Source of the DNA: Alphaproteobacteria bacterium
Lineage (GTDB): Bacteria; Pseudomonadota; Alphaproteobacteria; Rhizobiales; Devosiaceae
DNA: 64,000 bases
NCBI GenBank assembly: GCA_018828145.1
Contig: JAHJWO010000013.1
Location: forward strand, 1-64,000
Direction: 5' to 3'
Shown: one piece after another, positions 38,697 through 63,813 of the stretch
Layout: each line of letters opens with the position of its first letter
Position numbering within the stretch: position 1 is the stretch's first letter
The notes under the pieces: generated by a model
Seen by the model: the letters and a program-made list of their open reading frames with translations, nothing else
What the model was told of the DNA's origin: nothing
Databases searched by the model: none
Position numbers and translations under genes: made by a program

Positions 38697-40326
38697 CACC
38701 GAGAGCGTTGCCGCTACAGACGCCGACCACGAAGCGCGACTGCAGTTCCTCACGTGGGACCGTACGCAGGCAGATATCGATGCGCCCGAACATCGGGCGC
38801 GGCAGGCGCATTGGGCGCGCGTGTCCGGAGCGAGTTTTCACCCCACCGCCTATGTGGCGGCGGAGGCGGCGATTTTCACCAGCCACCTGGTGCTGGGCGA
38901 AGCGAGCTGGATTGCCGGGCATGCGCTGGTTCGCGGCGACGTGGAGTTCGGCGCCCATACCACGGTCAATCCCTATGCGATGATTTCGGGCAAGGTGCGC
39001 TGCGGCGACGGGGTGCGGATTGCCAGCCATGTATCGATCGTGGGGTTCAACCACGGCTTCGACGACCCCAGTGTCCCGATCCACCAGCAAAAGCATGAGA
39101 GCCTGGGCATCACCATCGCGGACGATGTGTGGATCGGGGCCAATGCGGTGGTGCTGGACGGGGTCACGGTGGGCAAGGGCGCAGTGATCGCGGCTGGGGC
39201 GGTGGTCAGCAAGGATGTGTCGCCGCTGGCCATTGTCGGCGGTGTTCCCGCCAAGGTGGTTCGCTATCGTGGGCAATCAGCGACGCGGGACGCGGCAGCG
39301 GTGCTGGGTCGGCTGGGCGGCGCGGCGCAGGCGCAATTGCCGGAGGTGCTGGCGGCCTATCGCGACGGCGCGGACTATGTGTCGCGCGAGGCTGATGGCC
39401 AGGTGCGGCGCAGTGCGCGGCATCGCAATGATGCCATCGAGCTGGCGGCGGGCTTCGATACTTTACCGGAGGGGCTGGACGCGGCGGAAACGCTCAGGCA
39501 GCTCCGAGACCTGCAGGATCCGGAGACGGGATTGTTTCCCGATCCGTACCGGCCCCCGGCGCCGGGCCGGGCCATGCGGGATGACGGGTTGGCGCTCTAT
39601 AATGTGCTGTCGGTTGGCTATGCCATCGAGGTGCTGGGCGGCCAGCCGAAATATCCCGTTGCGGCCGTGGAGCTGGGGGCGGGGGCGCTGTGCGACTGGC
39701 TGGAAAGCCTCACATGGCGGGAGCGGGCCTGGGGCGCGGGCGCGGCTGTCGACAGCATCGGCACGGCGCTCTACTTCAATGCGCGCTATTTTGCGACGGG
39801 GCGGACGCGGGAGACGCTGTTCGGCTGGCTGGCGATGAAGCAGGACCGGGCGAGCGGACTATGGGGTTCGACCACGGCGGATGAGGGTTTGCTGCAACCG
39901 GTCAACGGGTTCTATCGGCTGACGCGCGGAACCTATGCCCAGTTTGGCCTGCCCGTGCCCAATGCGGAGCGAGCGATCGACTCGGCGCTGCTCAACTATC
40001 GCAATTATGGCGGGTTCTCGGGCCCCACCTATACGGCGTGCAACCTGCTCGACACGATCCACCCGCTCATGCTGTGCCTGCGGCAGACCGACTATCGGCG
40101 TCCTGAGGCCGAGGCCATCGGCCGAGCGGTGATCGCGCGGGCGGGGGAGCGCTGGGTGGACGGCAAGGGGTTTGCCTTTGCCGATGGCCAGGCGCCGAGT
40201 CTGCAGGGTACCGAGATGTGGCTTTCGGTGGTGCATCTGGCAGCGGAGCTGCTGGGGATTGCCGGGGCGTTTGCGTTCGTGCCCAAGGGCGTGCATCGGA
40301 CACGGGCAGTGGGACTGGGGTTGTGA
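38692..40326 (+). CDS. Hexapeptide acyltransferase fused to alpha/alpha-toroid domain
   Basis: Two parts are visible. Residues about 52-195 form a left-handed beta-helix acetyltransferase of the maltose/galactoside/WbbJ type: hexapeptide rungs, catalytic-type H121 in [30 protein letters not shown] and the terminal [11 protein letters not shown]. Residues about 225-530 are helical repeats resembling an alpha/alpha-toroid ([57 protein letters not shown]). I chose the GTG at 38692 (544 residues). A longer frame from 38524 would translate the repeat. The fusion implies acetylation of a sugar recognised by the toroid domain; this is inference. Confidence 0.75.
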
Positions 40327-48512: not shown

Positions 48513-49157
48513 CTACTCCGCCGCCCGACCTGCGGGGAAAATTCCCGACATGACCACGAAGCCGGGAATGCGGCGGACGCGGTCGGTCCAGCGGCGAAGG
48601 GCCGGATAATCCTGGCGGGAGATGCCGCCTTCCTCGCTCAGCATGACATAGGGGAAGCAGGCAATATCGGCCGTGGTCGGGTGGGCGGGTGAGCAGAGCC
48701 AGTCGCGGCCTTCGCGCTCGCCGAACCAGAGGTGTTCGTCCATGAGGCGGAAAATGCGGTGGGCGCCCTGCTGGGCCCTGGCGATGTCGAAATCGTAGAA
48801 GAAGCCGAGGGCGAGACGGGCGGCGGAACTGGTGGCGGTGATGTCATCGGCCACGGCATGCCAGCGGAGCACTTCGGCGGTGATGGCCGGATCGTCGGGG
48901 AACCAGAGGCCGGTCGCGTCGTACTTTTTCGCCAGGTAGGCGAGGATGGCGCCGGAATCGGAGAGGACGAGGTCATCGTCCTTGAGGACGGGGAGCTGGC
49001 CGAAAGGATTGAGGCGCAGAAACCAGTCCGCCTTGTGCTGGCGGCCGGGATAGAAATCGACCGGGATGATGTCATAGCGGAGCTTGAGGATGCTCATCAG
49101 CAGGCGGAGCTTGTAGCAGTTCCCGGAGAGCTCGAAGTCGTAGAGGGTGATGGCCAT
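48513..49157 (-). CDS. Glutathione S-transferase-like protein (NdmE-like partner)
   Basis: The 214-residue protein has an N-terminal thioredoxin-like domain (MAITLYDFELSGNCYKLRLLM; LNPFGQLPVLKDDDLVLSDS, with the cis-Pro and SDS glutathione-binding turn) and an all-helical C-terminal domain (TTADIACFPYV with the capping motif). It is 3 bases downstream of the Rieske-reductase gene and last in a three-gene operon. In Pseudomonas putida CBB5 the GST-like NdmE is a structural partner of NdmC and NdmD; the same arrangement here suggests such a role and not detoxification. Catalytic GST activity cannot be excluded. Confidence 0.85.
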   Translation of the reverse strand: MAITLYDFELSGNCYKLRLLMSILKLRYDIIPVDFYPGRQHKADWFLRLNPFGQLPVLKDDDLVLSDSGAILAYLAKKYDATGLWFPDDPAITAEVLRWHAVADDITATSSAARLALGFFYDFDIARAQQGAHRIFRLMDEHLWFGEREGRDWLCSPAHPTTADIACFPYVMLSEEGGISRQDYPALRRWTDRVRRIPGFVVMSGIFPAGRAAE

Positions 49158-49160
49158 GGG

Positions 49161-50861
49161 TCAGATATCCAGCACGAGGCGTGGGGACTTGGCGCGGGAG
49201 ACACAGGTCATCATGCAGGTGTTGGAACGCTTTTCGCTGTCGTTGAGATAGACGTCCTGGTGATCGACCTCGCCTTCCATCACGGTGGTGAGGCAGGTGC
49301 CGCAGGCGCCCTGTTCGCAGGAGCTGGGGACGGTGAGGCCGGCCTCGCGCATCACCTCCATAATGGTCTTGCCCGAGGGGATGTGGAGCGTCATGGCGGA
49401 GCGGGCGAGTTCGACGTCGAAGGCCGAGCTGTCGTCGATGACCTTGTCGTTCTTGAAATATTCGAAGTGGATGGCTTCGTCGGGCCAGCCCTGGGCGGCG
49501 GCGGTGGCGCGGACGGTTTCGAGCATGGCGCCGGGGCCGCAGACATAGACGTGCTGGGCGCGGGACCACTGGCCGAGGGCGGTGGCTATTGTCGTGCCGA
49601 TTTCGGCGCGGGGCAGGCCGGTGTGGAGCATCACCTTGCCGTGGAGCGCTTCGAGATCGCCGCGGAAGGCGACCTGTTCGCCGGCGCGGGTGAAGTAATG
49701 CAGTTCATAGGGCAGGCTCGACTTGTCGAGGAAGCGGGCCATGGAGAGCAGTGGCGTGATGCCGATGCCACCGGCGATGAGCACGGTGCGAGTGGCGTCG
49801 CGGCGCAGCGGGAAGTTGTTGCGCGGCTCGGAAATGGCGAGGACGTCGCCCTCGCGCACCGTTTCGACCAGGACCTTGCTGCCGCCCTTGGAGGCGCTCT
49901 CCTGCTTGACGCCGATGATGTAGCTCATCAGCTCGCCGGGGCCATTGGTGATGGAATATTGGCGGATCAGGCCATTGGGCAGGTGCACATCGATATGGGC
50001 GCCGGGCTGGAAGGTGGGCAGATGCCCCTCGCGTGCGGCCAGCTCGAAGCCGATGACGCCATCGGCGCTGGTCCATTTGCGCCTGACCACGACAGGCAGG
50101 GTATTGCCGCGCGGAATGGGAATATCCGGCATGGTGGCGAGATCGGCCGAGACCTTGTCGAAGGCGGGCTGGAGCGGCTCGGGCGCCGGCTTGCGGGCGG
50201 CGGCGCGCTCGAGGCGGTCGCGGAGCTTGGTGAGGGTCTCGTTGTATTGGCGGAGGGTGGTGGTGTCGGGTTGGGCGGGCAGGAGGCCGCGGATCACGGC
50301 GCGGCCGGCATCGACGGGCTGGACGAAGTAGATGGTGCTGCCGGCGCGGATGGCGAGGCCGGGCAGCAGATCGGCGGGCTGGTCATCGGGCGCGAGGCCG
50401 GCAAGGGCAGCGCGCACGTCTTCCGGCGCGGCATTGACCGGCATGGGGCGGAGCGGAAACCAGTCACCGGCCTCGGCGCCGGGGAAGGGCGCGAAGGCGA
50501 TGTCGTCATTGGCGGCGGACCAGACGAGGCCAAAGGCCTCCTGCACCGGATAGGTCCGGTTCTCGATGCGGCGGGCGGGCGCGTCGGCCGGGTGGGCCGG
50601 GATATAGGTGCAGCCGGCAGAGCGATTGGCATAGCGCCAGCCGTGATACTGGCACTTGAGCTCGCCGCCTTCATTGACGCCGATGGAGAGGCGCACGCCG
50701 CGATGGAGGCACCGGTTTTCCCAGACGTTGACATTGCCATCATCGGCGCGCCAGACGGCCAGTTCGCGGCCGAGCAGCTGGCCCTGATAGACGTGGCGGA
50801 AGGGGAGGTCTTCCGAGCTGGCGATGGGGTACCAGGTGGGGTCGGAAAGGGAGAGGGTCAT
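49161..50861 (-). CDS. Rieske domain fused to FMN/plant-ferredoxin reductase (NdmD-like)
   Basis: The 566-residue electron carrier has four modules. An N-terminal Rieske [2Fe-2S] domain has C51, H53, C70 and H73 (CLHRGVRLSIG...CQYHGW). A spacer of about 130 residues follows. The flavin reductase has RQYSITNGPGELMS, the NAD site IAGGIGITPLLSMAR and VYVCGPGAML. The C-terminal plant-type [2Fe-2S] domain has C515, C520, C523 and C553. Ordinary phthalate-type reductases lack the N-terminal Rieske. This fused plan is that of NdmD, which feeds N-demethylases. The upstream oxygenase lacks its own Rieske site, so this protein likely supplies it. Confidence 0.9.
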   Translation of the reverse strand: MTLSLSDPTWYPIASSEDLPFRHVYQGQLLGRELAVWRADDGNVNVWENRCLHRGVRLSIGVNEGGELKCQYHGWRYANRSAGCTYIPAHPADAPARRIENRTYPVQEAFGLVWSAANDDIAFAPFPGAEAGDWFPLRPMPVNAAPEDVRAALAGLAPDDQPADLLPGLAIRAGSTIYFVQPVDAGRAVIRGLLPAQPDTTTLRQYNETLTKLRDRLERAAARKPAPEPLQPAFDKVSADLATMPDIPIPRGNTLPVVVRRKWTSADGVIGFELAAREGHLPTFQPGAHIDVHLPNGLIRQYSITNGPGELMSYIIGVKQESASKGGSKVLVETVREGDVLAISEPRNNFPLRRDATRTVLIAGGIGITPLLSMARFLDKSSLPYELHYFTRAGEQVAFRGDLEALHGKVMLHTGLPRAEIGTTIATALGQWSRAQHVYVCGPGAMLETVRATAAAQGWPDEAIHFEYFKNDKVIDDSSAFDVELARSAMTLHIPSGKTIMEVMREAGLTVPSSCEQGACGTCLTTVMEGEVDHQDVYLNDSEKRSNTCMMTCVSRAKSPRLVLDI

Positions 50862-50950
50862 GCGGTCATCCGAGGAGATTGGGATCGCGCCACGATCGGA
50901 TGAGGTCGGAGTTGGCGAGCCTTGGCGTACGAGGCTCGCTCCATGTCGCG

Positions 50951-51844
50951 TCAGCTTGCCATCGGAATGGTGCCGTAGGTGATGCCCTTCTGGCTCAGCC
51001 AGCGGCGATAGGCGATGGCGGATTTGTCGGCGCGGATGGGCGTTTCGGCGCGCGGATCCAGCGGCAGCCGCTTGGGATACTGGTTCTCGAGGATGGGCTT
51101 GTCCTGGCCGAAAATGGTCTGCTGGAAGCGGCGCAGGTCGGTGATGGTGGAGGTGCTGTCGATCATCGATTGCAGCAGGTGGGCGCGGCAGCGTTCCTCG
51201 GTCATCGGCTGGAGGAAGATGGCGATGACGTCGCGGCGGTCGGGGGCCTCGGGGGAGGATTTGTAGAGCACCGAGCAGAAGGGATGGGGGACGCGATAGA
51301 CATATTCGACCTCCATGCCCTCGGTGGCCGAGAGGGCGGCGCGGGGCTGGAAGAAGCGGCAGCGGGTGGCGAGGACCTCGTCGCGCTCCTCGGAGACCTC
51401 GACGTCGTATTCCTTGACCTCGGTATGAGGCTCGGCGCCGAGAATGTCGGTGTGGACATAAGGGAAATGGCCCATGTCGAGGAAATTTTCGACGGCGCGG
51501 GGGGCCGAGACGTGGATGCCGATGGAGCCGCAGCTCATGTTGACGCGGTCGGGCTCGGCATATTCGGGGATGGGGAAGAGCTTTTTGGGCGGGGTGCCGA
51601 GGCTGGTCCAGATATAGCCGTAGCCGGTGATGGCGGGGAGGCGGTCGAGGATGGTTTCGGGGTCGATCTCGTCGCCCGGTTCCTCATTGGTGCGCAGCCA
51701 GACCACGGGATTGCCGGCGTCGTCGCGGGTGAGGGCGATGCGCCGGTCGAGCAGGATTGTGGTCTCGACCTGGCCGACGGGGATTTCGTCGGTGGCGGCG
51801 ATGACGTGCCAGAGGTCGCGCGTGACGGGATCGATGGAGGGCAT
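50951..51844 (-). CDS. Rieske-less non-heme iron oxygenase (NdmC-like)
   Basis: The 297-residue protein is a ring-hydroxylating/demethylating oxygenase alpha-type catalytic subunit. The iron site is present: bridging D123 and ligands H126 and H131 (ENFLDMGHFPYVH), with D248 (FGQDKPILENQ) as third ligand. The N-terminal part keeps the opening strands of a Rieske fold (LWHVIAATDEIPVGQ, RRIALTRDDAGNPVVWL), but both cluster-binding loops are gone; the first cysteine is C105. It must receive electrons from another Rieske centre, plausibly the fused reductase downstream. This matches NdmC of caffeine degraders. The real substrate (N-methyl purine or other) is unknown. The ATG at 51859 is an alternative start. 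Confidence 0.85.
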   Translation of the reverse strand: MPSIDPVTRDLWHVIAATDEIPVGQVETTILLDRRIALTRDDAGNPVVWLRTNEEPGDEIDPETILDRLPAITGYGYIWTSLGTPPKKLFPIPEYAEPDRVNMSCGSIGIHVSAPRAVENFLDMGHFPYVHTDILGAEPHTEVKEYDVEVSEERDEVLATRCRFFQPRAALSATEGMEVEYVYRVPHPFCSVLYKSSPEAPDRRDVIAIFLQPMTEERCRAHLLQSMIDSTSTITDLRRFQQTIFGQDKPILENQYPKRLPLDPRAETPIRADKSAIAYRRWLSQKGITYGTIPMAS

Positions 51845-52002
51845 GGGCGGTCTCAACATTTGGGGTGAGCATAATCCGGCGCCGCGCGAGTGCCAGTGGA
51901 AAGTTGGCGCGGGGGATATGTGCCGCAGGCATTGCTGGCGGAATCTGGTATGGAACGCGGTGATTGGCGCAGTTGACCTGCCGGCTCATGGAGGAATTTG
52001 AC

Positions 52003-53037
52003 GTGGAGAACATGGCTGAGCGGTTTGCGGCGGAGGTGCTGGAGGCAAAGGTGGCCGCGGCATTGCGCGAGGCGGGGGCGAGCGAGGCGTCGCTGCTGGC
52101 GGCGACGCGGGCCATGATGCATGCGTCGCTTCTGGGCGTCGACAGCCATGGCGTGCGGCTGACCGAGCACTATTGCACCATGCTGGCGGGCGGGCGGCTC
52201 AACAGGGATCCCCAGCTCAAGGTCGATATTCGCGCTGCGGGCAGCGCCATGGTGGATGGCGATGACGGGCTGGGGCACTACGCGGCCTACAAGGCGGTCG
52301 AGGTGGGGATCGAGCTGGCGCAGCAGGCGGGCGTTGGGGCGGTGGGGATTGCCCATTCGTCCCATCTGGGCGCGGCGGGGGCCTATGCACTGGCGGGTGC
52401 CGAGCAGGGCTTTGTCACCTTTGCCACGACCAATACCGATTCCATGGTGACGCTGTTCGACGGGGCGCAGCGGTTCCATGGCACCAATCCGCTGGCTTTC
52501 GCGGCGCCGGTGCCCGACAGCGAGCCGTGGCTGCTGGACATGGCGACGTCATCGATCCCGATGAACCGGGTGTTGCTGCATCGCTCGCTGGGCGTGGAGC
52601 TGCCCGAGGGCGTGGCGGCCGATGCGGATGGGCTGCCGGTCACCGACCCGGAGCAGGTGGACATGCTGCTGCCGCTGGGCGGGGCGCAGTATGGCTACAA
52701 GGGTGCGGGGCTGGCCGGGGTGGCGACGCTGTTCTCGGCGCTGCTGACCGGGACGACGCTCGATACCGATTTCATCCCGATGTATGGCGGCGACGACATC
52801 TCGACGCCGCGCAATATGGGGCATTTCGTGCTGGTCATCGACCCGGACAAGTTCATCGGGCGCGACCTGTTCGGGGCCATGATCACGCGCTATCTGGCAG
52901 GCCTGCGCAGCGCGCCCCTGCGGCCGGGCGCCGAGCGCGTGATGGCGCCGGGCGACCGGGAATGGACGGAGCGGGCACGACGGCAGGCCGAGGGCGTGCC
53001 GGTCGACCCCGATACGGTGCGGTTCCTGGGGCTCTAG
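52003..53037 (+). CDS. Malate/L-lactate dehydrogenase family (LDH2/MDH2) oxidoreductase
   Basis: From a GTG with GGAGG 8 bases upstream the enzyme has 344 residues. Family signatures: catalytic-type His in LGVDSHGVRLTEHY, IAHSSHLGAAGAYAL, and GYKGAGLAGVATLFSALLTG near the C-terminal third. It uses NAD(P) and reduces or oxidises 2-keto/2-hydroxy acids, ureidoglycolate or similar. It is divergent from the NdmC-like gene with 158 bases between, so shared control is possible. Ureidoglycolate dehydrogenase (purine breakdown) is one attractive but unproven option. Confidence 0.85.
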   Translation: MENMAERFAAEVLEAKVAAALREAGASEASLLAATRAMMHASLLGVDSHGVRLTEHYCTMLAGGRLNRDPQLKVDIRAAGSAMVDGDDGLGHYAAYKAVEVGIELAQQAGVGAVGIAHSSHLGAAGAYALAGAEQGFVTFATTNTDSMVTLFDGAQRFHGTNPLAFAAPVPDSEPWLLDMATSSIPMNRVLLHRSLGVELPEGVAADADGLPVTDPEQVDMLLPLGGAQYGYKGAGLAGVATLFSALLTGTTLDTDFIPMYGGDDISTPRNMGHFVLVIDPDKFIGRDLFGAMITRYLAGLRSAPLRPGAERVMAPGDREWTERARRQAEGVPVDPDTVRFLGL

Positions 53038-57592: not shown

Positions 57593-59467
57593 TTGTGTGT
57601 TGCCCTGGCCGGTTTCGGCATGACGGCGGCGCCTGTTGCTGCATTCGAAATCTTCGGCATGAAGTTCTTCGAGGATGAGAGCGACGCCGATGCGGTGATC
57701 GCCGATCCCCAGCCCTATACCGTTGTCATCACCGTCAATGCCACGGGGGGCGTCGAGAGCGCGGTGCGCAATGCTTCGGCGCTGGTGGCCGACCAGAACG
57801 AGCCGGCTTCGGGCGCTGCGGGCCTGCTGGCCAAGGCGCGGGGCGATTATCGGCGCATCGTCGCCGCACTCTACAACGAGGGCCATTACGGCGGCACGGT
57901 GAGCATTCGCGTGGGCGGGGCCGAGGCGGCCAACCTGGCGCCGGACGTCAACCTGCCCGATCCGGTGGATGTGGCCATTGTGGTCGATCCCGGTCCGCTG
58001 TTCCGGTTCAGCAGCGTCAACCTGGTCAATCAGGCCGCGCCGACCAATGACCCGTTCGACTATGTGGAGCCGCCGCTGAGCGTCGGCTTCGGCACGGGAG
58101 AAATCGCCAAGTCATCGGTGATCCTGCGCGCGGAGCAACTGGCGCTCGAGGCGTGGCGGCAGCAGGGGCATGCCAAGGCGGTGATCGTCAGCCGCGACGT
58201 GGTGGCCGACCATGCGACGCAACTGGTGGATGTGACCATCACGGTCAATCCCGGAGCCAAGGCCGCGTTCGGCGCGGTGACGGTGAGCGGGACGGAGCGG
58301 ATGGACCCCGAATTCGTGCGGCGGCAGACCGGGCTGACGGTGGGCGAAGAATATGACCCGGACGAGCTGGCACTGGCGCAGCGGCGGCTTGACCGGCTCG
58401 AAGTGTTCCGCGCGGCACGGCTGGAGGCGGCCGAGGCCATCGGGGCGGACGGATTGCTGCCCTATAACCTGATCGTGCAGGAATTGCCGGGCCGCCGGTT
58501 TGGCGTGGGCGCGACCTATTCGACGATAGACGGGCTGGGGCTCGAGGCATTCCACCTGTGGCGGAACCTGTTCGGGCAGGCCGAACGGCTGCGGCTCGAT
58601 GCGCGGGTGGCCAGCATTGCCTGGCCAATCGACACGGCGCAGTTCGACTATTTCTTCGGCGGCACCTTTACCAAGCCGGGCATGTTCACGCCCGATACCG
58701 ACCTTATCGCCGCCGTTTCGGCGGAGCGCACCATCTATCCGACCTATAGCGAGACCTCGGCGGGCGGCCGGGTGGGGCTGACGCATATGCTGTCGGACCA
58801 GATTACGCTCGAAGGCGGGACGCAGTTCGAGATCAACCGGTTCGACGACGTGTTCGGGACGCGCGATTTCAAGACGGTGGGGCTCTATGGCGGGGCCGTG
58901 CTGGATTTCCGCGATGACAGCGTGGACGCGACGAGCGGCTGGTATGGCGCGGTCAATGTCGAGCCATTCTATGAACTGAACTACGGCAATGCCGCGGCGC
59001 GGCTGACGGTCGAGGGGCGCACCTATTTCGGCTTTGGCGAGGATGATCCCTTCGTGCTGGCCGGGCGGCTGAAGGCCGGGGCGCTGGTGGGGCCGAGCCT
59101 GGCGGAAATCCCGCCGGACAAGCTGTTCTTTGCCGGTGGCGGCGGCTCGGTGCGCGGCTATGGGTTCAAATCGATCGGCGTCGACAATGGCGCAGGCGTG
59201 ATCACCGGCGGGCGCTACCTGCTGGAGGCCTCGATCGAGGCGCGGGCCAAGGTGACCGAGGATATCGGCGTCGTCGGCTTCGTCGATGGCGGCTATGTGG
59301 CGGCCGACGTGTTTCCCGCGCTGACCGACCTGCGGATCGGGGCGGGCGTGGGCGTGCGCTATTATACCGGGCTGGGGCCGCTGCGGCTGGACGTGGCCGT
59401 GCCGCTCAACAAGCGGGCGGGCGACCCCGACTATGCGCTTTATGTCGGCATCGGGCAGGCCTTCTGA
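57593..59467 (+). CDS. tamA: TamA: outer-membrane assembly module (Omp85 family)
   Basis: The protein has 624 residues from a TTG. There is a signal region (LAGFGMTAAPVAAFEIFG), POTRA-like domains (about 40-290: YRRIVAALYNEGHYGGTVSI; GAVTVSGTERMDPEFVRRQT) and a C-terminal Omp85 barrel (about 300-624), including GGGGSVRGYGFKSIG (the VRGY lid motif) and the final LYVGIGQAF. It sits in the outer membrane and works with TamB in moving proteins or lipids across the periplasm. The frame is open back to 57539. A CTG at 57557 would restore a fuller signal peptide (LHIARLVTSFGALCVALAGF). The start is therefore uncertain and non-ATG. Confidence 0.9.
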   Translation: MCVALAGFGMTAAPVAAFEIFGMKFFEDESDADAVIADPQPYTVVITVNATGGVESAVRNASALVADQNEPASGAAGLLAKARGDYRRIVAALYNEGHYGGTVSIRVGGAEAANLAPDVNLPDPVDVAIVVDPGPLFRFSSVNLVNQAAPTNDPFDYVEPPLSVGFGTGEIAKSSVILRAEQLALEAWRQQGHAKAVIVSRDVVADHATQLVDVTITVNPGAKAAFGAVTVSGTERMDPEFVRRQTGLTVGEEYDPDELALAQRRLDRLEVFRAARLEAAEAIGADGLLPYNLIVQELPGRRFGVGATYSTIDGLGLEAFHLWRNLFGQAERLRLDARVASIAWPIDTAQFDYFFGGTFTKPGMFTPDTDLIAAVSAERTIYPTYSETSAGGRVGLTHMLSDQITLEGGTQFEINRFDDVFGTRDFKTVGLYGGAVLDFRDDSVDATSGWYGAVNVEPFYELNYGNAAARLTVEGRTYFGFGEDDPFVLAGRLKAGALVGPSLAEIPPDKLFFAGGGGSVRGYGFKSIGVDNGAGVITGGRYLLEASIEARAKVTEDIGVVGFVDGGYVAADVFPALTDLRIGAGVGVRYYTGLGPLRLDVAVPLNKRAGDPDYALYVGIGQAF

Positions 59468-62400
59468 TGGCCCGGCTGCTGGCATGGCCGAAGCGGCTGA
59501 TCGTTCTCCTCCTGGTCCTCGTCGGGCTGGCCGTGCCTGCCGCCATCGTGGCGCAGGACGTGCTGACGATGAACAATGAAGAGCAGAAGGACTGGCTGAC
59601 CAGCTTCGTGCAGGACCGGCTGTCGACGCCGGAGCGGCAGATCAGGCTGTCCAATATCGACGGTGCACTGGGTTCGGACGTCTCGGTGCGCGAGATCACC
59701 ATTTCGGACACCGAGGGGGTCTGGCTGCGCGTCAACAATGCCACGCTCAACTGGAACCAGGCGGCGCTGCTCACAGGGCGGCTGGAAGTACGCTCGATCA
59801 GGGCCGATTCCATCGACTATATCCGCAATGCGGTGCCGGCCGAGGGGGCAGTGGACCTGCCGCCGCCGGAAGCGGGCGGGCTGGCGGTGCCGGAATTCCC
59901 GGTGGCGATCATCCTTGAAGAGCTGAGCGTGCCCTCGGTGACGTTCGGCGAGAATGTATTCGGGCTGGGCTCGGAGATTTCGCTGGCCGGGGCGCTGACG
60001 CTGGATGGCGGCAATCTCGATGCCAACCTGGACATCGTGCGGCTGGACGGGCCGGGCGGGACACTCGATCTCGATGTGGCCTATCAGCGGGCGGACAATG
60101 TCGTCGATGTCAGCCTGTCGCTGGTCGAGCCGGAAAACGGCGTCATCGCCAACCTGCTCAGCATCGAGAACCGGCCGGCGGTGACGCTGACGCTGGTGGG
60201 CAATGGGCCGGTGACCGAGTTGCGCGGCGAGCTGGTGCTGCAGGCCAATGGGCAGACGGCGCTGTCCGGGCTGGCAACGGTCAGCCAGCAGGCGGAGGGC
60301 ATTGCCATTGCCGCCGACCTGCGCGGGCCGCTGTCGACGCTGATCGCGGAGCCGTACCGGCCGTTCTTCGGCAGCGAGACGGCGTTGACGGCCAATGCGC
60401 TGGTGCGGACCGAAGGCGGAATTTCCGTCACCGGGCTGCGGCTGACGGGCGGGCAGCTGTCGCTCGAAGGCGCGGCGGAGACGACGCCGGACAATTTCCT
60501 GCGGTCACTGACGCTCGACGCCGTCGTGGCGGACGCGGCGGGTGGGCAGGTGATCCTGCCGGTGCCGGGCAGCGCGACGCGGCTGGGCTCGGCGCAGCTC
60601 AGCATCGATTATGGCGGGGATGCCGGCGACAGCGCGACCAACTGGTCGGCCAACCTGGCGGTCAAGGATTTCGAGCAGCCGGGCTTTGCCGCGGAAACCG
60701 TGGCGCTGACGGTGGGCGGGGTTTCATCGGCGCTGGACGATCCGGCGGCGCGAAGGCTGACCTTCAATGGCGATGGCGCGGTTTCGGGCATTGCGGGGTC
60801 CGACGAAGTGCGGGCGGCGCTGGGCGACAGCATTGGCATCGGCATTGCAGGACTGTGGAATGCCGGCGAGCCGGTGCAGCTGGCCGAATTCCGGGTGGCG
60901 GGCGCGGCCCTGACGGCGGCTCTGGCCGGACAGCTGGACGGGTTCGACTTCACCGGTGACATCAATCTCGAGACGTCGAGCATTGCGCCGTTCTCCGGGC
61001 TTGCGGAACGCGAGCTCGATGGCGCGCTGGCGCTGCGGGCCAGTGGCTCGATCATGCCGCTGAGCGGCGGGTTCGACCTGACGCTGGATGGTACGGGCAA
61101 CAATCTGGCGATCGATGACGAGATTGCCGACCGGCTCCTGGCCGGAACGGTGGCATTGAGCGGCCGGGTGGCGCGCACCGAGGCGGGGCTGACGGCGGAG
61201 AATTTCCGCATCGCCAACCAGCAGCTGCAAATCCTGGCGGATGGTACCTATGCCAGTGCGCTTGCCGATTTCACCTTCAACCTGGACCTGAGCGACCTGG
61301 CGCTGCTGTCGGACCAGGCGAGCGGCGCACTCGCCGTGGTGGGCACGGCCAAGGGCGCCGAGGGCGTGATCGACCTCAATCTCGACGCACGCGTTGCGAG
61401 CGGAGAGCTTGCCGGGCGGGCCCTGCGCGATGGCCAGGTCGGCTTTGTGGGGCGCTACAATGTCGACAGTCTCGATGGCGACATTACCGGCGCCGGGTCG
61501 CTGGATGGGTTCCGCACCACGCTGGCCGCCGGCGTCAGCCTGACGCCGAGCCAGCAGGCGCTGGAGGGCATAGACTTCCAGGCAGCAGGGACGCGCATTA
61601 CGGGCGATCTGACGCGGACCGTGCTGACGGGGCTGGTCAATGGCGGGCTGACCATGGTGTCGCCCGATGTGTCCGTGCCGGCGGCGCTGGCGCTGCTGGA
61701 TGCGGAAGGCGCGGTCAATGCCGAGGTGACGCTGGCGCCGGCTGGAGACAAACAGGGTGCAACGATCCGCGGCGATGTGCGTGGCCTCGTGGTCAATGAC
61801 ATCCGCGTCGGGGCAGCCGATATCAATGCGACGGTGGAGGATCTGTTTGGCGTGCCGGCGGTGGATGGCGCGGCCAATGCCAGCGACGTGTCGGCGGCGG
61901 GTGTCGATATCGAGAGGCTGACGGCACGGGCGACGCAGAGTGGCGCCACGACGGCATTCGACGCACAGGCGGCGCTGGCGACGGGCACCGATGTGGCCAT
62001 TGCCGGGTCGCTGACGCCAGTGGGTGACGGGTACAGTCTTGCGGTGGACCGGGCGGAGCTGCAGCAGGGCACGCTGTCGGCGCGGCTGGCACGACCGACC
62101 GTGCTGCAGGTGACCGGGTCCAGCGTGGCGCTGGATGCCGTCCGCTTCGATGTGGGCTCGGGCTCGATCACGGCGACCGGTTCGGCGGGCGAGACGCTGG
62201 GCATTGCGCTCGAGATCAATGCTCTGCCGCTGTCGATCGCCAATGCCGTGGTGCCTGACCTGCAACTGGCGGGCACGCTCAATGGCCGGGCCGATATATC
62301 GGGCACGGGCAGCGATCCGCAGGTGCGCTTCGAGGCGCGGGCCGAGGGCGTCAATGCGGCCGCGATCAGCGAATTCGGCATTGCGCCGCTGACGGCATCG

Positions 62401-63813
62401 GCCAATGGGACATTCCGCAACGGCACGGTGACACTGGCCGGGCTGAGCGCCAACGGTTCGGGCGGCCTGACGATCAGTGGCTCCGGCACGGTGCCGCTGG
62501 AGGGCAATGGGCTCAATCTGTCGCTGCAAGGCTCGGCGCCGCTGGCGCTGGGCAACCGCTTTGTTGCCGACCGCGGCGGGCAGCTGAGCGGCGTCCTGAC
62601 GCTGGATGCGCAGGTGACGGGGAGCCTTGCGAGCCCGCAATTTGGCGGGCGGGTATCGACCAGCGGCGCTGGATATGTCGATCCGGAACTCAACCTGCGG
62701 CTGCAGGGCGTGAGCGGCTCGGCGAGCCTCAATGGCGACAATCTGGTGATCGACAGCCTGGCAGGGAGCCTGGCAACGGGTGGCTCGGTGTCGGCCTCGG
62801 GGTCGATCGGTCTGTCGGCTGGCTTTCCGGCCAACCTGCGCGTGGCGCTCAACTCGGCGCGCTATGCGGATGGCAATCTCTTCGTCGCGACGGTTTCGGG
62901 CAGTCTCGCACTGACGGGCAACCTGACCGGCTCGCCTTTGCTGAGTGGCGATGTGTTCGTCGAGCAGGCCAATATCACCGTGCCGGAGAATTTCGGCGGC
63001 GGGGCACAATTGATCGATGTCGATCATGTGCGCACGCCGCCCGCGGTAGAGCAGACACTGGCGCGGGCGCGGATCGACGAGCGCAGCGGCGCGCCCATTC
63101 CGCAGTCCCGGCCGGCAGGCGTGGTGCTCGATATCAATCTCAGCGCGCCCAACCAGATCTTCATCCGCGGGCGCGGGCTGGATGCCGAAATGGGCGGCAC
63201 GGTGCGGCTGACGGGTCCGCTCAACGATATCCAGCCAGTGGGCGGCTTCTCGCTCAATCGCGGCCGGCTGTCGATCCTGGGACAGCGTGTGACGTTCGAA
63301 AGCGGCACGGTGACGCTGGTGGGCGATCTCGATCCATTCCTGAACCTTGTTGCGCGCACCGAAGGCGAGGGGATCACCGTCTTCGTCACCGTCTCGGGAC
63401 GCGCGTCGGACATCAATGTGACCTTCAGCTCGAGCCCCGCATTGCCGCAGGATGAAGTGTTGAGCCGGCTGATCTTCAACCGGTCGATGGGGGAGCTATC
63501 GCCCCTGCAACTGGCCCGGCTGGCCGGCGCTGCGGCGGAACTGGTGGGCGGCGGCGGCAATGGGCTGGTCGACAGCCTGCGCGGTGCGGCGGGACTGGCC
63601 GATCTCGACATCGTCACCGATGACAGCGGCAATGTGGCGGTGCAGGCGGGGACCTATATCCAGGACAATGTCTATCTGGGTGTGCAGGCGGGCGCCGGCG
63701 GCCAGAACAAGGTGACGATCAACCTCGACGTGACCGATGACCTCAAGGTGACGGGCGCGGCCGGGCAGGACGGAAATTCGAGCCTCGGCGTGTTTTATGA
63801 GCGGGACTATTAG
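59467..63813 (+). CDS. tamB: TamB: translocation and assembly module subunit
   Basis: The 1448-residue protein has an N-terminal inner-membrane anchor (RLIVLLLVLVGLAVPAAIVA), a very long periplasmic beta-taco built of repeating short strands rich in Gly/Leu/Asp, and the C-terminal DUF490 domain (GGTVRLTGPLNDIQPVGGFS; VTFSSSPALPQDEVLSRLIF; FYERDY terminus). It bridges inner and outer membranes with TamA and is thought to carry lipids or help insert outer-membrane proteins. Its ATG overlaps the tamA stop. Length is usual for alphaproteobacterial TamB. Confidence 0.95.
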   Translation: MARLLAWPKRLIVLLLVLVGLAVPAAIVAQDVLTMNNEEQKDWLTSFVQDRLSTPERQIRLSNIDGALGSDVSVREITISDTEGVWLRVNNATLNWNQAALLTGRLEVRSIRADSIDYIRNAVPAEGAVDLPPPEAGGLAVPEFPVAIILEELSVPSVTFGENVFGLGSEISLAGALTLDGGNLDANLDIVRLDGPGGTLDLDVAYQRADNVVDVSLSLVEPENGVIANLLSIENRPAVTLTLVGNGPVTELRGELVLQANGQTALSGLATVSQQAEGIAIAADLRGPLSTLIAEPYRPFFGSETALTANALVRTEGGISVTGLRLTGGQLSLEGAAETTPDNFLRSLTLDAVVADAAGGQVILPVPGSATRLGSAQLSIDYGGDAGDSATNWSANLAVKDFEQPGFAAETVALTVGGVSSALDDPAARRLTFNGDGAVSGIAGSDEVRAALGDSIGIGIAGLWNAGEPVQLAEFRVAGAALTAALAGQLDGFDFTGDINLETSSIAPFSGLAERELDGALALRASGSIMPLSGGFDLTLDGTGNNLAIDDEIADRLLAGTVALSGRVARTEAGLTAENFRIANQQLQILADGTYASALADFTFNLDLSDLALLSDQASGALAVVGTAKGAEGVIDLNLDARVASGELAGRALRDGQVGFVGRYNVDSLDGDITGAGSLDGFRTTLAAGVSLTPSQQALEGIDFQAAGTRITGDLTRTVLTGLVNGGLTMVSPDVSVPAALALLDAEGAVNAEVTLAPAGDKQGATIRGDVRGLVVNDIRVGAADINATVEDLFGVPAVDGAANASDVSAAGVDIERLTARATQSGATTAFDAQAALATGTDVAIAGSLTPVGDGYSLAVDRAELQQGTLSARLARPTVLQVTGSSVALDAVRFDVGSGSITATGSAGETLGIALEINALPLSIANAVVPDLQLAGTLNGRADISGTGSDPQVRFEARAEGVNAAAISEFGIAPLTASANGTFRNGTVTLAGLSANGSGGLTISGSGTVPLEGNGLNLSLQGSAPLALGNRFVADRGGQLSGVLTLDAQVTGSLASPQFGGRVSTSGAGYVDPELNLRLQGVSGSASLNGDNLVIDSLAGSLATGGSVSASGSIGLSAGFPANLRVALNSARYADGNLFVATVSGSLALTGNLTGSPLLSGDVFVEQANITVPENFGGGAQLIDVDHVRTPPAVEQTLARARIDERSGAPIPQSRPAGVVLDINLSAPNQIFIRGRGLDAEMGGTVRLTGPLNDIQPVGGFSLNRGRLSILGQRVTFESGTVTLVGDLDPFLNLVARTEGEGITVFVTVSGRASDINVTFSSSPALPQDEVLSRLIFNRSMGELSPLQLARLAGAAAELVGGGGNGLVDSLRGAAGLADLDIVTDDSGNVAVQAGTYIQDNVYLGVQAGAGGQNKVTINLDVTDDLKVTGAAGQDGNSSLGVFYERDY

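Follow-up and report, generated by a model that had tools for sequence, protein, structure and literature searches.

A Three-Gene Locus in a Devosiaceae Genome That Probably Encodes an NdmCDE-Type Split Rieske Oxygenase with Complementary Alpha-Like Chains

Three adjacent minus-strand genes in a 64,000-nucleotide stretch of DNA from an alphaproteobacterium of the family Devosiaceae (assembly GCA_018828145.1, contig JAHJWO010000013.1, positions 1 to 64,000; hereafter the window) probably encode one enzyme, a split Rieske oxygenase of the NdmCDE type that is built from two complementary alpha-like chains and is likely to N-demethylate an N-methylpurine. The genes specify an oxygenase, a reductase, and a protein related to glutathione S-transferases (GST). 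In sequence profiles and predicted structures, each of the first two chains looks like a Rieske-oxygenase alpha subunit from which the partner's metal center has been removed. Because the nearest named relatives among the matches listed are Devosia, we take this to be the host genus.

The first-pass annotation of this DNA had described an NdmCDE-like trio outside the known caffeine degraders. Its gene positions and named residues hold, as does the 3-base gap that it placed between the reductase and GST-like genes, and the architecture is as described; the wider occurrence is not new, because a 2015 review (PMC4408171) already counts 18 further organisms with ndmCDE homologs, mostly Sinorhizobium and Mesorhizobium. 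According to the same review, the published NdmCDE complex demethylates 7-methylxanthine and requires its GST-like protein.

Results

Coding Strand and Features

Coordinates are collected in Table 1. A 723-amino-acid open frame (48732–50903, plus strand) lies opposite the reductase gene. Compared with three Devosia relatives, substitutions in the reductase frame fall mostly at third codon positions (e.g., 170 versus 60 and 50), and this excess identifies the minus strand as coding despite the opposing frame.

Table 1. Features of the locus, with the evidence for each (positions in the window)
Feature	Position	Strand	Evidence and remarks
Rieske-less oxygenase subunit (NdmC-type, "alpha-C")	50951–51844	-	297 amino acids; alternative start 51859 (302 amino acids); Pfam, ligand rows, AlphaFold, alignment to SxtT
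Probable degenerate Rieske domain of oxygenase, about residues 1–80, without cluster-binding lobe	51605–51844	-	hhalign, AlphaFold strands
Iron site D123 (bridging Asp by analogy), H126, H131	51452–51478	-	Row conservation
Iron ligand D248	51101–51103	-	161 of 162 rows, one gap
NdmD-type reductase: apparent pseudo-alpha subunit with Rieske cluster, fused to reductase of the phthalate dioxygenase reductase type	49161–50861	-	566 amino acids; Pfam, 2pia homology
Rieske [2Fe-2S] domain, residues 9–122 (C51, H53, C70, H73)	50496–50837	-	PF00355, 9.9e-19; ligands invariant in 41 rows
Predicted shrunken catalytic (helix-grip) domain without iron ligands, about residues 126–228	50178–50486	-	hhalign, AlphaFold, structure alignment
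Flavin and NAD(P)H domains of reductase	49452–50099	-	PF00175, homology to 2pia
Plant-type [2Fe-2S] ferredoxin domain	49188–49406	-	PF00111, 4.6e-14; 6icm_D NdmD chain, E 1.6e-18
GST-fold subunit (NdmE-type)	48513–49157	-	214 amino acids; domain search; GST relatives in 92 of 97 loci
Divergent Ldh_2-family dehydrogenase	51964–53037	+	PF02615; recurrent in Devosia (14 of 18 loci); candidate member of the enzyme only

Oxygenase Subunit

Pfam assigns VanA_C and, marginally, KshA_C to the oxygenase and finds no Rieske domain in it. The iron-site residues D123, H126, H131, and D248 are invariant across 20 relatives; in a larger alignment of 162 rows (4 of 166 were dropped), D123 and H131 are kept in all rows and H126 in 161. 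A Rieske motif pattern is present in 3 of the 166 rows, and all three are intact oxygenases (loci L116, L169, and L170). The chain therefore does not carry a Rieske cluster and a mononuclear iron together, as a canonical alpha subunit does; Pfam, the motif rows, and ligand conservation agree with the earlier description of an intact iron site without cluster loops.

Over its first 98 residues, the oxygenase family matches the partner's Rieske profile (hhalign, 98.7%; E 2e-16, E-values from hhalign being for a single pair and not database-wide), with the cluster-binding lobe missing. The AlphaFold model, which the first-pass annotation had proposed as a check, gives a confident fold that lacks this lobe (predicted local distance difference test [pLDDT] 89.6), with N-terminal strands at 13–17, 27–31, 34–40, 46–50, 71–74, and 77–80, and it superimposes on residues 1 to 334 of SxtT over 287 residues (Z 29.2, root-mean-square deviation [rmsd] 2.8). 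Among solved chains, SxtT, SxtDIOX/GxtA, NdmA, and NdmB alone match the oxygenase at E 0.1. A second proposed check, alignment to NdmC, yields 44.7% identity with the protein from the caffeine cluster of Pseudomonas putida MT178, with Q241 and F245 common to both. That cluster lies on a plasmid (L154), and its NdmA piece is 92% identical.

Reductase and Its N-Terminus

By Pfam, the 566-residue protein contains Rieske (residues 9–92), NAD-binding, and Fer2 domains, and residues 262–566 match phthalate dioxygenase reductase (2pia, E 5.8e-66). An N-terminal Rieske domain, a flavin domain, and a plant-type ferredoxin are thus all there, as in NdmD and as first annotated. What is incomplete is the view that the reductase merely gained a Rieske domain: its N-terminus resembles a whole pseudo-alpha subunit, and in the tree described below separate Rieske genes occur both outside the fused group and next to it.

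This resemblance depends on residues 126–228, where Pfam finds no family at E 0.1. The stretch matches the catalytic profile of the oxygenases (hhalign, 89.3%; E 2e-6), and the controls gave E 0.37–0.92 for five column-shuffled profiles, 0.22 for the GST profile, and 0.16 for the Rieske profile. A match of the extension to the reductase profile (94%) was not used, because the two cut-outs overlap. In the AlphaFold model of residues 1–255 (pLDDT 84.0), block means are 88–98 for residues 131–230 and 62–75 in the cluster lobe, and residues 140–222 are modeled as strand, helix, strands, and long helix, the order of a catalytic domain. Residues 1–228 of the model align with residues 2–309 of dicamba monooxygenase over 218 residues (Z 18.6, rmsd 3.4), with SxtT over 215 (Z 18.0), and with NdmA over 220 (Z 17.0, rmsd 4.2); a best Foldseek E of 1.2e-12 also supports reciprocal loss. 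The iron pattern D/E/N..H....H occurs in none of 118 Rieske-chain extensions (7 of 125 rows having been dropped). Given the profile comparison, the two AlphaFold models, the structure alignments, and the missing iron motif, we regard the chains as complementary pseudo-alpha subunits, two alpha-derived proteins each without the other's center.

GST-Fold Protein

In the Devosia protein, position 68, which from our reading of the motif we take to be the usual glutathione-holding serine, is serine; over 118 rows, alanine (69) is commoner there than serine (37). Conservation is higher at S11 (105 of the 118), C14 (107), Y15 (110), and K16 (105). This residue pattern suits a structural role without proving it, and such a role has been proposed for NdmE in two papers (PMC4408171, PMC13237722). 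The protein is most likely a structural clamp.

Distribution and Gene Architectures

A genome scan yielded at least 529 confirmed relatives among at least 586 candidate stretches, and the best 80 were kept, giving 79 loci. Together with 13 plasmid stretches, 37 further genome stretches, and the window, these make up a non-random sample. Architecture counts exclude the short loci L001–L035 and L123–L153 (repeats or short flanks) and L169–L171, which have no split oxygenase; they cover 127 loci, 97 of them with at least 4.5 kb on each side of the oxygenase, and are taken from a tblastn pass, open-frame passes being liable to miss genes hidden by antisense frames.

Within these 97 loci, the Rieske chain is fused to the reductase in 67 (66 with GST), is a standalone gene with no reductase in the stretch in 21 (20 with GST), and lies beside a separate reductase gene in 5, all with GST (one of them, L158, is doubtful and may be frame-damaged). 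A single Variovorax locus (L041), also with GST, has the oxygenase fused to the reductase beside a standalone Rieske gene. Three loci have neither Rieske chain nor GST. In the Acidimicrobiia loci L092, L110, and L117, a split oxygenase stands with no such gene detected in the stretch, so that the partner chain is missing or encoded elsewhere. A Rieske chain is therefore found in 94 of the 97 loci and a GST-like gene in 92, the Devosia locus included. Of 75 genomes in the genus, 59 have the oxygenase, and it is in single copy in most. The suggestion that the trio belongs to a wider class of enzymes holds, and conservation of the trio is strong in the genome survey that was proposed alongside it.

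Every part has its own gene on a Komagataeibacter plasmid from kombucha, where the stretch also contains NdmA-like and formaldehyde genes. This plasmid carries a second Rieske-oxygenase pair (L156, 24342–25693, minus strand), whose Rieske chain has glycine at the expected second cluster cysteine and may be cluster-dead. A conjugative plasmid of Klebsiella pneumoniae from a urine isolate (L157) bears an NdmCDE-like trio, accompanied by genes for an NdmB-like protein and a nucleobase transporter. A small acylphosphatase gene lies near 14 of 27 separate-Rieske loci (including L039, L040, L043, L161, L162, L168, L182, L185, L186, and L187), as against 0 of 67 fused loci.

Trees

Two trees were built by a quick method, both with long branches and numerous open forks: one of the catalytic domain (150 rows, near-identical loci thinned by hand, without the intact oxygenases L138–L142) and a separate one of the Rieske domain, which has only 109 columns. 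In the first, all 130 split-oxygenase rows fall into a single group (Shimodaira-Hasegawa-like approximate likelihood ratio test [SH-aLRT] 96), and the nearest intact rows are L116, L169, and L170; transporter and guanine deaminase genes of the same kind surround L169 and L170. NdmC belongs to the same clade as the Devosia oxygenase, in a different subclade. The Variovorax fusion L041, L160, and L191, all with standalone Rieske genes, fall outside a 126-row fork (SH-aLRT 90), and inside it a 24-row clade with separate Rieske genes (97) faces 102 rows that include the fused loci, NdmC, and Devosia in one weakly supported group (80). Members of the latter that depart from the fused pattern are L113 and L078, which have a Rieske gene and no reductase detected; L158, which is doubtful; and the second Komagataeibacter copy, which has a long branch. 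Placing four architecture labels on 145 rows takes 6 changes. Of 52 Rieske chains in the second tree, 51 group together (SH-aLRT 86) near L116, L169, L170, and seven more intact oxygenases. L041, L160, and L191 appear again, as do a group of loci with separate genes (17 rows, 90) and one of fused loci that includes L113 (31 rows, 96).

With moderate support, the trees fit the duplication of one oxygenase, complementary loss, and then fusion. Since three separate-gene lineages lie outside the fused group and the 24-row separate-gene clade is its sister, the Rieske chain probably began as a gene of its own and joined the reductase later; support for this order is likewise moderate.

Neighboring Genes and Specificity Positions

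Purine-type neighbors (guanine or 8-oxoguanine deaminase-like proteins, NCS2 transporters, BMP-type transporters with an ATPase, NdmA, and HpxO, scored at thresholds that we set) are found in 53 of 97 loci and in 36 of 52 genus-level groups, which are partly redundant; formaldehyde detoxification genes are found in 18 loci and 12 groups. Ten neighbor proteins were scanned, and five pass the NCBIfam cut-off: a guanine deaminase (L098), an 8-oxoguanine deaminase (L180), adenine and cytosine deaminases (L060), and a serine hydroxymethyltransferase (L086). For an aminotransferase beside the Sinorhizobium trio, assignment as a ureidoglycine enzyme was not established, the best NCBIfam scores lying far below cut-off.

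The locus does not have the ndmA and ndmB genes that stand alongside ndmCDE in a caffeine cluster. As the first-pass annotation had noted, no ndmA/ndmB-like gene scores above threshold between positions 40001 and 61000, and the same holds for the other 17 Devosia loci. Elsewhere in the host genome, one stretch carries a guanine deaminase, a BMP-type transporter, and a xanthine dehydrogenase that scores above its family cut-off; a formaldehyde dehydrogenase is also encoded. The presence of the oxygenase in so many genomes of the genus suits a general nutrient better than caffeine. Dependence of the Devosia trio on a second guanine deaminase was considered and failed a co-occurrence check, the oxygenase being present in 24 of 28 genomes with that deaminase versus 35 of 47 without it.

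Positions 241 and 245 align with N282 and F286 of NdmA; 282 is reportedly a specificity position, as marked by the published QL mutant. Q241 is found in 124 and F245 in 154 of 162 rows. In 26 of 30 multi-oxygenase loci (L111, L116, L160, and L192 are not among the 26), the upstream oxygenase has M241 and the downstream one Q241, with F245 in both. Because of this M/Q split, the paralogs probably differ in specificity and share one Rieske-reductase and GST. About 5 kb upstream of their tandem pair, L072, L074, L084, and L086 have a third paralog of the oxygenase, in which the two positions are H and L.

Discussion

In ordinary Rieske oxygenases, the Rieske center of each subunit passes electrons over the subunit interface to the iron of its neighbor. 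Since the transfer normally crosses this interface, a complementary pair can still work, and we suggest the following scheme. By sequence and prediction, the oxygenase chain retains the mononuclear iron site and has lost the Rieske cluster, and the N-terminal 230 residues of the reductase retain the cluster and have lost the iron site. Electrons would pass from NADH to the flavin, to the plant-type [2Fe-2S] center, and to the Rieske [2Fe-2S] center of the same chain, then across the interface by way of D123 to the oxygenase iron, where O2 would be activated, with the GST-fold protein clamping the complex. The reaction that we envisage, with less certainty than the electron path, the assembly, or the role of the GST-fold protein, is oxidative demethylation of an N-methylpurine (7-methylxanthine or a related natural base) with release of formaldehyde. 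There are five Rieske-domain stretches in the host genome, and the other four are on other contigs; a separate electron donor is thus possible, although none is adjacent to the trio.

Several results weigh against parts of this interpretation. The match of the extension to the catalytic profile is 89% by itself, and that to the intact-oxygenase profile is poor (1.8%, E 0.027). The Rieske chain of L188 does not group with the other Rieske chains in the tree. Neighbor counts are raw, with no background from random regions, and BMP-type transporters can carry compounds other than purines. The second guanine deaminase, 56% identical to the trio-linked enzyme of Mesorhizobium, shows no clear link with the oxygenase across the genus, and Q241 is not special to split oxygenases, since 9 of 21 intact ones also have it. 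Finally, among the scored families, no purine transporter, deaminase, or formaldehyde gene is found in any of the 18 Devosia loci.

This last result bears on the substrate. The Devosia trio could act on a non-purine N- or O-methyl compound, perhaps in connection with the Ldh_2-family gene, which is the only recurrent scored neighbor in Devosia. We consider this unlikely: positions 241 and 245 are as in NdmC, the nearest tree groups include the purine-linked L088 and Granulosicoccaceae (though also L113 and L172, which lack such genes), and the trio is kept in Devosia loci L048, L049, L051, and L174 with no Ldh_2 gene detected. The first-pass annotation had anticipated a new substrate; the relatives point instead to purines, and the Devosia neighborhood is uninformative, so that a purine substrate in Devosia is extrapolated from relatives.

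A somewhat less probable alternative is that the enzyme is a purine ring hydroxylase that dispenses with molybdenum, like HpxDE, and not a demethylase. Only 16 of the 53 loci with purine-type neighbors also have formaldehyde genes in the stretch, HpxO accompanies the trio on the P. putida plasmid, and a distant listed relative is annotated as HpxD, a xanthine hydroxylase subunit. Demethylation is favored by the closest characterized relative, NdmC, which is an N7-demethylase, by the occurrence of the formaldehyde genes beside loci of several architectures, and by the xanthine dehydrogenase that the host already has.

It is very improbable that the residues after the Rieske domain are an unrelated linker given an alpha-like fold by modeling bias, the Rieske domain having simply moved to the reductase, as PMC4408171 words it. 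The lack of a Pfam match and the modest profile score would fit such a linker. The shuffled controls fall far short of the observed E-value, the model is confident over the very residues concerned, the alignment spans a whole alpha subunit, and other lineages have standalone Rieske genes with a comparable extension. That the trio is a decayed or inactive remnant, both chains having lost domains, is scarcely credible given near-invariant metal ligands, the dominance of third-position substitutions, and retention of the oxygenase across most genomes of the genus.

Taking the chains as complementary pseudo-alpha subunits, we tentatively propose a broader history, one that we would not put as high as an even chance. 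NdmCDE and its relatives may be a bacterial family that arose by duplication of an oxygenase, reciprocal loss of metal centers, and recruitment of a GST clamp, followed by fusion of the Rieske chain to the reductase (ndmD) or, separately, of the oxygenase to the reductase (Variovorax). The original job might have been recycling of natural N-methylated purines (e.g., 7-methylguanine from RNA), not caffeine, with paralogous oxygenases of differing specificity sharing one electron-supply chain.

The trio has the three-gene set and domain order of NdmCDE from P. putida CBB5. It differs in lacking, among the genes scored, ndmA/ndmB, a transporter, and formaldehyde genes, and in its subclade and predominantly single-copy occurrence. 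SxtT/GxtA, dicamba monooxygenase, and NdmA/NdmB share the fold of both Devosia chains and differ in having both centers on one chain. HpxDE is alike in its Rieske type and purine context, a relation that we know only from the annotation of distant matches. The split chlorophyllide a oxygenase of Micromonas is likewise a Rieske oxygenase spread over two chains, one of which reportedly keeps the cluster and the other the iron; it is eukaryotic and acts on chlorophyll, the likeness is one of architecture, and it is not known to have a fused reductase or GST partner.

In the literature covered, from which subscription journals were largely absent, we found no account of a pseudo-catalytic domain in NdmD and nothing joining "Rieske," "7-methylguanine," and "demethylation." As far as we have seen, then, what is new is the whole pseudo-alpha subunit within the reductase, the range of natural architectures with their probable order, and near-core status in Devosia. 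The structure of NdmCDE remains unsolved according to PMC13237722 (May 2026). Reading the N-terminus of NdmD as a whole alpha-like subunit suggests a model of assembly, with an alpha-type interface between the chains and a GST clamp. The natural split, fused, and oxygenase-fused versions offer ready constructs for studying electron transfer across the Rieske interface, and the gene neighborhoods point to a widespread route for methylated purines, as yet little studied, among soil-dwelling and plant-associated bacteria.

Other Features of the Window

The divergent malate/lactate-type dehydrogenase that the first-pass annotation placed beside the trio is there (Table 1). Its identification as AllD, ureidoglycolate dehydrogenase, was dropped at 195.8 bits against a cut-off of 496.2 (TIGR03175) and 207.2 against 356 (PRK15025). 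At Rfam gathering scores, nothing was found in the window and one small-RNA family (ar14) in six context loci; no xanthine-sensing riboswitch was thus found in either. At 57593–63813 is a pair that resembles the outer-membrane assembly proteins TamA and TamB. Between 42807 and 45616, an elongation-factor-P-like gene stands beside lysyl-tRNA-synthetase-like and lysine-aminomutase-like genes, presumably its lysine-modifying enzymes.

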